Origin: Euryarchaeota archaeon SM23-78
Lineage (GTDB): Archaea; Nanobdellota; Nanobdellia; Woesearchaeales; SM23-78
Reading direction: 5' to 3'
Length of the DNA stretch: 33,457 bases
Assembly (NCBI GenBank): GCA_001595785.1
Contig: LSSJ01000006.1
Span: forward strand, 1-33,457
Shown here piece by piece: positions 19,040 through 25,351 of this stretch. The notes beneath the pieces are model-generated. The model was given only the letters and a program-made list of their open reading frames with translations, made no database searches and was not told the origin of the DNA. A program made the position numbers and the translations under genes. The first letter of the stretch is position 1, and each line of letters starts with the position of its first letter.

Positions 19040-19167
19040 TGTCGGCGAGGGGATTTGAACCCCCGACTTCCACGGTGCACCACAATCTTTCTTCATTGAC
19101 TTTCGTCTCATCGCTCAAAGATTGTCTTTATGAGCGTGGCGCTCTAACCAGGCTAAACTACGCCGAC
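19040..19167 (-). tRNA. tRNA, probably Met(CAT), with an anticodon-loop intron
   Basis: On the minus strand the acceptor GTCGGCG (19161-19167) pairs with CGCCGAC (19041-19047), with discriminator A at 19040 and no encoded CCA. The D-arm is GTTT...GAGC, the anticodon stem is CCACG/CGTGG (19135-19139 / 19070-19074), and the T-arm is GGGGG-TTCAAAT-CCCCT. The loop begins CTCATA and the stem resumes 53 nt later. A canonical 37/38 intron at 19076-19128 gives the loop CTCATAC, i.e. anticodon CAT. The intron has a 9-bp helix (ACAATCTTT/AAAGATTGT) and an inner GAC-GAAA-GTC hairpin. The bulge-helix-bulge pairing at the junction is imperfect, so the exact splice sites and anticodon are less certain than the tRNA itself. 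The stem lacks the initiator's GGG/CCC pairs, so elongator Met or Ile(CAT) is meant. Confidence 0.8.
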
Positions 19168-22148: not shown

Positions 22149-22640
22149 TTATTTCACATCAACAAACACCACTTTATCTTTCTCAACATCCAAGAGAATG
22201 ATTTTGTTATATTCTGAAGGGTCTCCTAAGAAATGCCCTCCTGGACAAAGCACTCTTGTAGCTTTTACTTTTTTATCCTCAGGTGCATGTGTATGCCCAT
22301 GTATAAAATAATCATAGCCCTTTCTAAGCATCTTATCATTAATCAGGATATCATCGCCATGGAAAACACCGACTTTTTTTCTTTTTATCTTTAACTTCAT
22401 TATTCTTCCATAATGCTCTCCATCAATTTCCCTTACTTTCTCCTCAATCTTTAACCTGTCACCATCGCAGTTGCCAAAAACAAACTTCATGTTAAGCCCA
22501 TCAAAATACTTCACAGTGGCTGGCGATATAATATCACCTGCATGTATAACAAACTCTACGTTGTGCTTCTTAAAGAGCTCAACAGCTTTCTTAATATTAG
22601 GAACATTGTCGTGTGTATCAGAGATTATGCCGATAACCAT
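22149..22640 (-). CDS. Calcineurin-like phosphodiesterase, YfcE/MJ0936 family
   Basis: 163 residues with the full metallophosphoesterase set: ISDTHDN, HAGDI, GNCDGD, FHGDD and HGHTHAPE. These ligate two metal ions. The family cleaves phosphodiester bonds in small substrates; the cellular role is unclear. The start is ATG 22640, with AGAGGT 6 nt upstream (22647-22652). This ribosome binding site lies only 1 nt beyond the discriminator base of the tRNA-Ala gene, so tRNA and mRNA are probably on one transcript and separated by tRNA 3' processing. Confidence 0.92.
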   Translation of the reverse strand: MVIGIISDTHDNVPNIKKAVELFKKHNVEFVIHAGDIISPATVKYFDGLNMKFVFGNCDGDRLKIEEKVREIDGEHYGRIMKLKIKRKKVGVFHGDDILINDKMLRKGYDYFIHGHTHAPEDKKVKATRVLCPGGHFLGDPSEYNKIILLDVEKDKVVFVDVK

Positions 22641-22653
22641 TCTTTCACCTCTA

Positions 22654-22887
22654 TGGACCCTGCGGGACTTTCACCAAGTTTTAACATAGTTCGTAGGACT
22701 TCACGAAGTGAATGTCCTACTTGACTGCATTTTGTCAAGTCTCAGAAATGTGAAGCATTTCTGGACTCTCAAAAGCTTTGCTTTTGATGAGTTTTGGAAC
22801 GAACGAAGTGAGTGGGCTAAAACTTGTTTTGAACCCGCGGCCTCACCCTAGCCAAGGGCGCACTCTACCGAACTGAGCTAAGGGCCC
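22654..22887 (-). tRNA. tRNA-Ala(GGC) with a 160-nt intron in the T-loop (59/60)
   Basis: 5' part (22887 down to 22828): acceptor GGGCCCT, D-arm GCTC...GAGT, anticodon stem CGCCC/GGGTG with loop TTGGCTA (anticodon GGC), then T-stem GCGGG and TTCAAA. The frame of the cloverleaf then breaks and resumes at 22667 with T, CCCGC (T-stem partner), AGGGTCC (acceptor partner) and discriminator A at 22654. Joining A59 to T60 yields the complete T-loop TTCAAAT. The acceptor has the G3:U70 pair that is the alanine identity element. At the junction, T54-A57 (TTCA) pair with TGAA near the intron's 3' end. They are flanked by 3-nt bulges AAA and AGT, as splicing endonuclease substrates require. No CCA is encoded. 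TATA at 22915-22923 fits as its promoter. Confidence 0.9.
22668..22827 (-). other. Intron of tRNA-Ala, multi-hairpin
   Basis: 160 nt bounded by a 9-bp helix CAAGTTTTA (minus 22826-22818) with TAAAACTTG (minus 22683-22675). Inside, on plus coordinates, are hairpins at about 22694-22720 (GTAGGAC...GTCCTAC with inner TTCAC-GAA-GTGAA), 22720-22739 (CTTGAC...GTCAAG), 22743-22763 (CAGAAATG...CATTTCTG) and 22767-22791 (CTCAAAAGC...GCTTTTGATGAG). It has no ORF of homing-endonuclease size. Confidence 0.85.
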
Positions 22888-22914: not shown

Positions 22915-22923
22915 TTTATATAA
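22915..22923 (-). promoter_or_regulatory. TATA box of the tRNA-Ala gene
   Basis: Minus-strand TTATATAAA is centred ~32 nt before the tRNA 5' end, giving a short 5' leader for RNase P to remove. The same stretch also reads as a TATA box on the plus strand, but TTTTTTAAAT nearer 22935-22944 fits the methyltransferase start better. Confidence 0.5.
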
Positions 22924-23674: not shown

Positions 23675-25351
23675 ATGGAGCTTAAAGAAGTTATTGAGAA
23701 GTATGTTCTTGAGAATGCTGTTAAGTATAATGGCAAGGCTAATCCTAAGGCTGTTATTGGCAGTGTGATTAAGGCTTTGCCTGAGGCTAAGAAGGATATG
23801 AAGAATTTGGCTAAGCTTGTTAATGATAAGGTTAAAGAGATAAATAAATTGGGTGTTGCGGAGCAAAGAAAAATTATTGAAAAAAAGTATCCTGACTTGC
23901 TTGAAGAAAAAGAAAAACAAGAAAAGGACATCTTCGCCTTCTTAGGTATTAAGGAAGGTCAAAAAATTATTAGTGCGTTTCCTCCTGGTCCTGAGAAGTA
24001 CCCTCATATAGGACATGCAAAAGCCCTTATCCTGAACTACTTGTTGGCAAAGAAGTATAATGGTAAATTTTATCTAAGGTTTGAGGATACTAATCCAAGC
24101 CTTGTTAAAAAAGAGTTTTATGATATCATGCTTGATAATTTTAAATGGCTGGGTGTTGAGTGGGATAAGCTTCAGTATGCCTCTGATAACATGCACTTGT
24201 TCTATCATCTGGCTGATAAGATTATCAAGTTAGGAAAGGCTTATATGTGCTCCTGCAAGGTTGAGGTTATGAGGAAGAACAGGGAGAAGGGTAAGGCTTG
24301 CAAGTGCAGGGATAAAGAGCCTAAACAGAATCATAAGGAGTGGAAGCACTTTGATAAAGCAGAGCCTGGCAGTGCTGTGCTCAGACTAAAGATTGATTTA
24401 AAGCATAAGAACAGCACTATGCGTGACCCAACCATTTTCAGGATTATTGATGAACCTCATGCAAGGCATGGAAATAAATATAGGGTTTGGCCTAACTATG
24501 ATTTTCAAAACGCAATAATGGATGGCTATTATAAGATTACTCATAGGCTTAGGAGCAAGGAGTTTGAGATGCGTTCAGAGTTGCAAAGATATATTCAGAA
24601 GCTCCTTGGATTAACAATCACTTATACATATGAGTTTGCAAGGTTTAATCTTGAAGGCGTACCTAGCAGCGGCAGAGTTATTAGAGAGATGATTAAGAAA
24701 AAAGAGCTTATTGGCTGGGATGATCCAAGTTTAGCCACTATTGTTGCTCTTAGAAGAAGAGGTTTTACACCAGAAGCTATTAAGAACTTTGTGATAAGCA
24801 CTGGTATTACTAAGTCAGAGGCTACCATGACATGGGGTGACCTTATAGTTCATAACCGCAGAATTCTTGATGAGAGTGCTGATAGGTACTTTTTTGTAGC
24901 AGAGCCTGTGCTTATTAATATAAAAAATGCTCCTGAGCAAGAGATAGAATTACATTTTCATCCTCATCATAGAAAAGGAGGAAGAAAGCTCAACACCAAG
25001 CAAGAGTTCTATATTACAAAAGACGACCTTGAAGCTTTAAAAGAAGGTGAGCTCTACAGGTTCATGGATTGTCTTAACTTTGTGAAGAAAGGAGATGAGT
25101 TTGTTTTTGACAGCTTAGAACATAAAAAGTATAAAGAGAAAGGAAAAAGAATAATGCACTTCTTACCTGTTCAAAAAGACCTTGCGAATGTGGAGGTTTT
25201 AATGCCTGATAAAAAAGTGGTTGCAGGTTTTGGAGAGCCTTTAATGAAGACATTAAAAATAGGAGATATTATACAGGCAGAAAGGTTTGGGTTTATGAGG
25301 CTTGACAAGAAGGAAAAAGATAAATTGGTTTTCTGGTACACACATCAGTGA
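23675..25351 (+). CDS. gltX: Glutamyl-tRNA synthetase, archaeal type
   Basis: 558-residue class I synthetase that charges tRNA-Glu. Archaeal forms may also charge tRNA-Gln for later amidation. An N-terminal archaeal helical extension (~1-90) precedes the Rossmann core with PHIGHAKA (HIGH motif, ~111-114) and YLRFEDTNPS. A zinc-knuckle insert follows (CSCKVEVMRKNREKGKACKC), then YEFARFNLEGVPSSGRVIRE, where SSGR stands in for KMSKS. The C-terminal beta-barrel anticodon-binding region (from ~380) is of the GlnRS-like class, typical of archaea. TATA AATTATATAAA (23640-23650) inside the end of the methyltransferase gene predicts a leaderless start at ATG 23675. Confidence 0.96.
   Translation: MELKEVIEKYVLENAVKYNGKANPKAVIGSVIKALPEAKKDMKNLAKLVNDKVKEINKLGVAEQRKIIEKKYPDLLEEKEKQEKDIFAFLGIKEGQKIISAFPPGPEKYPHIGHAKALILNYLLAKKYNGKFYLRFEDTNPSLVKKEFYDIMLDNFKWLGVEWDKLQYASDNMHLFYHLADKIIKLGKAYMCSCKVEVMRKNREKGKACKCRDKEPKQNHKEWKHFDKAEPGSAVLRLKIDLKHKNSTMRDPTIFRIIDEPHARHGNKYRVWPNYDFQNAIMDGYYKITHRLRSKEFEMRSELQRYIQKLLGLTITYTYEFARFNLEGVPSSGRVIREMIKKKELIGWDDPSLATIVALRRRGFTPEAIKNFVISTGITKSEATMTWGDLIVHNRRILDESADRYFFVAEPVLINIKNAPEQEIELHFHPHHRKGGRKLNTKQEFYITKDDLEALKEGELYRFMDCLNFVKKGDEFVFDSLEHKKYKEKGKRIMHFLPVQKDLANVEVLMPDKKVVAGFGEPLMKTLKIGDIIQAERFGFMRLDKKEKDKLVFWYTHQ

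Follow-up and report, generated by a model that had tools for sequence, protein, structure and literature searches.

The tRNA-Ala(GGC) gene of the woesearchaeal genome G000 is interrupted by an insert of 160 nt that separates T-loop positions 59 and 60. We hold with high confidence that the gene is functional and that the insert is a bulge-helix-bulge (BHB) intron enlarged by repeat-related sequence. In this reading, for which there are no RNA data, we infer that the precursor is cut and its exons ligated, and also which way the repeat moved. Directly observed are the anatomy of the gene and its BHB, a single copy in the assembly, conservation of the interrupted site, an intron-less syntenic orthologue, the presence of EndA and RtcB, and the homology between intron and repeat. 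The host belongs to the Woesearchaeota (DPANN); its genome of 1.48 Mb is 90% complete, and its nearest named relatives are Candidatus Woesearchaeota HyVt-71, Nanoarchaeota OS_PC_MetaG.mb.11 and CSMAG_1970. The window, the whole stretch of DNA analysed here (33,457 nt), is contig C6 of this genome. The intron had been proposed in an earlier note, whose coordinates proved exact, on the minus strand (Table 1).

The exons, when joined, give a tRNA of 74 nt, GGGCCCTTAGCTCAGTTCGGTAGAGTGCGCCCTTGGCTAGGGTGAGGCCGCGGGTTCAAATCCCGCAGGGTCCA, with a full cloverleaf that includes the G3:U70 pair, the anticodon GGC and A73, in agreement with the earlier description of a rejoined molecule with all stems intact. 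ARAGORN calls this 74-mer tRNA-Ala(ggc) once the intron is removed, which meets the check that the note had proposed for the spliced sequence, and makes no call on the uncut gene. The Rfam tRNA model also had no match to the uncut gene, even with E up to 10, so the forecast that default tRNA finders would miss it held for both programs. The precursor is folded by RNAfold into the T-stem, a 4-bp TTCA/TGAA central helix, two 3-nt bulges and an inner helix of 11 bp, with four hairpins inside the intron beyond the inner helix. The T-stem, the central helix and the bulges AAA and AGT had been described correctly, but the inner helix is not the 9 bp first given, and an unpaired G (22674) opposite the 5' bulge makes a 3x1 internal loop on that side. 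The precursors of G002 and G003 (two species of the same genus) adopt the same junction fold. Of 40,000 versions of the intron made by dinucleotide shuffling, none combined a central helix of 4 bp with an inner helix of 9 bp at these places. The splicing endonuclease cuts a BHB after the second base of each bulge. Such cuts are predicted to yield the T-loop TTCAAAT, as the note had claimed, and exactly this T-loop is found in the contiguous tRNAs of G005, G092, G073 and others.

Table 1. Features of the interrupted tRNA-Ala(GGC) gene, its surroundings and related loci (window positions, unless a locus or contig is named)
Feature	Position	Strand	Basis
Phosphodiesterase-like gene, start 13 nt past the tRNA; syntenic partner	22149..22640	-	
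tRNA-Ala(GGC) 3' exon: T60, T-stem 3' strand, acceptor 3' strand, A73	22654..22667	-	Spliced-sequence analysis
160-nt intron, positions 59/60	22668..22827	-	Missing in contiguous orthologues; BHB fold; 0/40,000 shuffles
tRNA-Ala(GGC) 5' exon, positions 1-59, ends TTCAAA	22828..22887	-	ARAGORN on spliced sequence; contiguous orthologues
BHB 3' bulge AGT; inferred cut after base 2	22667..22669	-	RNAfold
BHB central helix, intron side, TGAA (CGAA in G003, exon TTCG)	22670..22673	-	RNAfold, relatives
Inner helix 3' strand TAAAACTTG, intron nt 145-153	22675..22683	-	RNAfold
Intron nt 88-138, 84% similar to the T-loop intron of tRNA-Glu on C31	22690..22740	-	
Intron nt 2-102, similar to dispersed intergenic repeat (83% and 81% in the two best copies)	22726..22826	-	
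Inner helix 5' strand CAAGTTTTA, intron nt 2-10	22818..22826	-	RNAfold
BHB 5' bulge AAA; inferred cut after base 2	22827..22829	-	RNAfold and BHB cut rule
BHB central helix, exon side, TTCA	22830..22833	-	RNAfold
TATA-box-like TTATATAA, ~30 nt upstream of tRNA position 1	22916..22923	-	Sequence; inference
Glutamyl-tRNA synthetase (GluRS) gene; syntenic partner, other side	23675..25351	+	
EndA, N-terminal tail of ~48 aa rich in lysine and glutamate	L063:1474-2127	-	
Genes with a 59/60 intron	C6 Ala-GGC; C5 two; C23; C3 Ser; C4 Ile; C2; C13		
Genes with a 59/60 intron, continued	C22 two; C31 Glu and Ala-TGC; C21; C19 Ser; C35 Leu; C30 Gly		

The same base of tRNA-Ala is interrupted in other species of the genus, by introns of 95 nt (G001), 97 nt (G002) and 27 nt (G003). 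Both neighbour genes are kept around the interrupted tRNA-Ala in G001 and G003; in G002 the phosphodiesterase neighbour is kept and the contig stops before the other. The G003 exon carries TTCG, which pairs with CGAA, a compensatory change relative to TTCA/TGAA. With G000 this makes four sampled species of the genus in which the site is interrupted, so the intron most likely predates their split. A tRNA beside GluRS is interrupted at the identical base in another family as well (G034) and is contiguous in G005, G092 and G073. The intron-less syntenic orthologue comes from G006, of the same genus, where both neighbours are kept and tRNA-Ala is contiguous. Its T-loop (L055:1501-1572) is TGCGACT and not TTCAAAT, which counts against our reading; another contiguous tRNA, of G053 (L037:1501-1572), has the T-loop TGCGATT, and both lack the usual T55.

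A search with the spliced tRNA, which the note had suggested, turned up no further tRNA-Ala(GGC) in the assembly; at 90% completeness a second copy is not excluded. The alanine codons GCT and GCC account for 272 of 474 in 25 ORFs of the window. An intron ORF or homing endonuclease was considered and rejected: only two frames of at least 60 aa overlap the intron (72 and 60 aa), both on the plus strand and entering from the neighbouring gene region, and we read them as chance. The Rfam scan of the window gave no match to a group I or group II catalytic intron model, and with the intron and the repeat as queries only tRNA scored above the gathering score. Elsewhere in the window (19040-19167, minus strand) lies a tRNA-Met (CAT) with an anticodon-loop intron of ~55 nt and an intact T-loop.

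Interruption at 59/60 is not a peculiarity of this one gene. Selected stretches of G000, without tiling of the genome, were scanned on the criteria of T-stem, BHB centre, acceptor and D-arm, and at least 16 tRNA genes with a 59/60 intron were found, tRNA-Ala(GGC) included. Two false positives (L004 and L125) were removed from this tally by hand, and Ala(TGC) on C31, Leu on C5 and C35, and Gly on C30, which the scan filters had dropped, were added; a reversed-sequence control of the scan gave two low-GC matches. The introns are 21 to 160 nt long, and many of the genes carry another intron too. None of the 16 genes is called by ARAGORN when uncut, and 14 are called with the right end point when the T-loop intron alone is removed, the isotype being unreliable where a further intron remains. 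By our own reading, the full 4-bp central helix is present in 11 of the 16 introns, and the other five have one mismatch. A further 14 tRNAs score above the cut-off of the Rfam model and one slightly below, and a T-loop intron was seen in none of these in the scan. With 16 interrupted genes set against these 14 + 1, about half of the ~30 recognised tRNA genes of G000 are split in the T-loop. The start of contig C31 (L207:1-120) and the end of C30 (L209:1480-1592) bear an identical tRNA-Gly intron and 3' exon, and for this reason the two contigs probably overlap. At L104 (C13), the tRNA start GCCACGGTCGCATA recurs ~70 nt upstream of the gene, resembling a partial duplication.

Of 338 genomes of the order, 286 contain the pattern GGTTCRAA-N(10-40)-YGAANNYCC at least once. 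It exceeds its reversed control about five-fold (424 vs 80 matches, first 136 order genomes listed); in other orders of the class the figures are 140 vs 49 (172 genomes). Strict tRNA tests were passed by 24 of 32 pattern matches (30 order loci), and several more nearly pass. Among the 128 distinct matches listed, base 57 and its intron partner are A-T in 97, G-C in 21, G-T in 6 and A-C in 4. This covariation (118/128 A-T or G-C; Fisher p = 5e-15) is not corrected for kinship, and the pattern already requires the partner to be Y. Near-identical introns stand at different places within one genome in several cases (e.g., G342, G392, G414 and G498), and an intron core of the CTTTCGGTTT type is common to different tRNAs within one family. 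Such recurrence in different tRNAs is reminiscent of intron transposition as reported from Thermoproteales (PMC4090602). The genome and order surveys rule out that the intron is unique to the tRNA-Ala(GGC) gene. The earlier note was right to suspect a DPANN host; its view that the intron would be unusual there did not survive, with at least 16 genes interrupted at 59/60 in this genome alone and such introns widespread in the order.

The note had also asked for the type of splicing endonuclease. G000 encodes one EndA protein (PF01974) of 217 aa, which from its sequence we class as alpha4-like: a single match with a short open frame fits neither an (alpha beta)2 nor an epsilon2 architecture, though a diverged beta subunit cannot be ruled out completely. 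The protein aligns almost without gaps to the alpha4 enzyme of M. jannaschii. Half of the 48 residues of its N-terminal tail are K or R, and lysine-rich N-terminal tails occur in some relatives too. The 9-residue stretch VEKPRGADF of the A. pernix enzyme, in which we place residues K44-P45-R46 of the loop specific to Crenarchaea (PMC12397907), is missing from EndA of G000 and of 29 aligned relatives, as is the insertion of N. equitans EndA; the CSL criterion for a broad-specificity endonuclease is likewise not met by the G000 protein. A PF01974 match is present in 94 of 98 relatives, nearly always as a single, short open frame. Endonucleases of the alpha4 form are listed as narrow in specificity (PMC6379350), and it counts against our reading that five of the 16 introns nevertheless have a central-helix mismatch. 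The plain alpha4-like enzyme may still suffice for most of the G000 introns, since 11 of them have the full central helix; their cleavage is inferred.

The host also has the RtcB ligase (PF01139), and the most likely route to the mature tRNA is as follows. Transcription would start from the TATA-like box, and in the pre-tRNA the exon TTCA would pair with TGAA near the intron 3' end. The alpha4-like EndA would then cut both 3-nt bulges without requiring the folded tRNA body, the D-loop/T-loop contact being unable to form until splicing. Ligation of the exons by RtcB would regain the T-loop TTCAAAT, and the excised intron would be released, probably as a circle. All of these RNA steps are inferred from the established archaeal pathway; the anatomy and the presence of the enzymes are observed.

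The length of 160 nt and the four hairpins, which the note had singled out as unusual, are both real, and the length is traced to sequence related to a dispersed, hairpin-rich repeat restricted to this genus. The best genomic match to intron nt 2-102 has 83% identity over ~100 nt (E = 1e-23). Copies of the repeat are mostly intergenic, beside stop codons or directly before start codons as read from the sequence. Its 86-nt core has 17 matches in G000, 10 in G002 and one each in G001 and G004, and no match in 25 other genomes. The core contains two hairpins; in the second one and its base, four pairs have changed on both sides. It also lies inside 59/60 introns of tRNA genes for Ser and Gly (G000), Ala (G001) and Leu (G002), and one tRNA of G002 (L212, on its contig C11) has the core in a long upstream intron, in the D-arm region, together with a short 59/60 intron. 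As the core recurs in 59/60 introns and in intergenic copies alike, the long Ala intron is, by sequence comparison, a 59/60 intron that contains the repeat or descends from it. Another short repeat, near GCCCGTCCGGCG, flanks several of the hairpin-repeat copies (L018, L019 and L013 of G000).

Resemblance to an intergenic repeat would also be expected if a repeat insertion had broken the tRNA gene and taken it out of use, and splicing is without RNA evidence. We give such a pseudogene next to no credence. The exons are intact and form the full cloverleaf, the gene is the sole copy found of a needed isoacceptor, and three sister species are interrupted at the same site, one with a compensatory change; it is the single copy, the conserved site and this change that rule the pseudogene out. 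Fifteen more tRNAs are, moreover, in the same state, and a viable cell could not afford to have all of them dead. A selective explanation, in which T-loop introns spread by destroying the 3' tRNA attachment site of integrases, accords with where the introns sit: all of them divide the tRNA gene in its 3' part. It has been put forward in print for tRNA introns as well as split tRNAs (Randau and Soll, cited in PMC3218864; also PMC3293823). Without a survey of integrated elements we consider it unlikely.

Whether the intron itself is mobile touches the origin of the functional, BHB-bearing gene that we favour. The repeat would be a transposable element whose terminal stem doubles as the BHB inner helix, so that any landing in a conserved T-loop could be spliced. 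Accordant with this are the occurrence of the core in T-loop introns of several tRNAs, in the upstream G002 intron and in many intergenic copies, and the two-sided changes in hairpin 2 and its base. Intron nt 2, furthermore, matches the usual 5' end of the intergenic copies, and this common boundary favours a mobile intron. However, the intergenic copies lack the intron 3' end (YGAANN), the sole match to a Y1 (IS200-type) transposase is partial and does not adjoin repeat copies, and in G003, where tRNA-Ala has its 27-nt intron, the repeat was not detected, a point in favour of its later entry into older introns. The direction is not settled. With neither a target-site duplication nor an empty site shown, we put forward only as a tentative possibility, and a doubtful one, that a small palindromic mobile element uses the conserved tRNA T-loop as its landing site, TTCRA providing half of the BHB and the element the rest. 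If this were true, each insertion would be self-removing at the RNA level, and the element would persist as tRNA introns and intergenic copies in an order whose endonuclease is of the simple alpha4-like form.

Several elements of this picture have precedents, and position 59/60 as a processing site and non-canonical introns in Thermoproteales, Asgard archaea, ARMAN and others are already known. In Thermoproteales (Pyrobaculum and relatives), BHB introns lie outside 37/38, with several per tRNA and similar introns across tRNAs, according to Fujishima 2010 as cited in PMC4090602 and PMC4033280, and in all these respects the Woesearchaeota introns are alike. Crenarchaeal endonucleases, in contrast, are mostly (alpha beta)2 with the Crenarchaea-specific loop (PMC4033280, PMC6379350), whereas G000 EndA is alpha4-like without the loop. 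The junction 59/60 is also a processing site in the permuted tRNAs of Thermofilum pendens and Cyanidioschyzon merolae (PMC3218864); these have the 3' half first, whereas the G000 gene keeps the normal order and its insert is an intron. Most tRNA genes of Atabeyarchaeia and Freyarchaeia are interrupted, often non-canonically and by more than one intron; these are, however, of Asgard lineage, and the main text of that report does not name the T-loop or T-arm (PMC11291895). ARMAN-1/2 and Nanoarchaeum equitans are, like G000, DPANN hosts with unusual tRNA gene structure (PMC4033280), but have epsilon2 and (alpha beta)2 endonucleases, and split tRNAs in N. equitans, where the present order has one short single-domain EndA. 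A tRNA intron is linked to repeated, possibly mobile DNA in Caldiarchaeum also (PMC3293823), where a 1.9-kb plasmid-like element was proposed to bring a 24/25 intron; here it is a short hairpin-rich repeat inside 59/60 introns. We found no prior report of T-loop introns in Woesearchaeota, nor of a BHB intron that shares sequence with an intergenic repeat as in G000; our literature search was incomplete, with subscription papers and preprints largely outside it, and this is weak evidence. What appears to be new is that such introns occur throughout an order of DPANN, the type of enzyme found with them, and the repeat common to introns and intergenic DNA.

Since about half of the G000 tRNA genes were missed by the finders tried (ARAGORN and the Rfam model), the tRNA counts used for judging genome quality are likely too low in Woesearchaeota. 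Endonuclease loops have been proposed to accompany tRNA intron diversity (PMC12397907), and an order rich in non-canonical introns without either known loop insertion offers a clear test of that idea. Finally, with an intron family that has intergenic relatives, it could become possible to observe directly how BHB introns arise.
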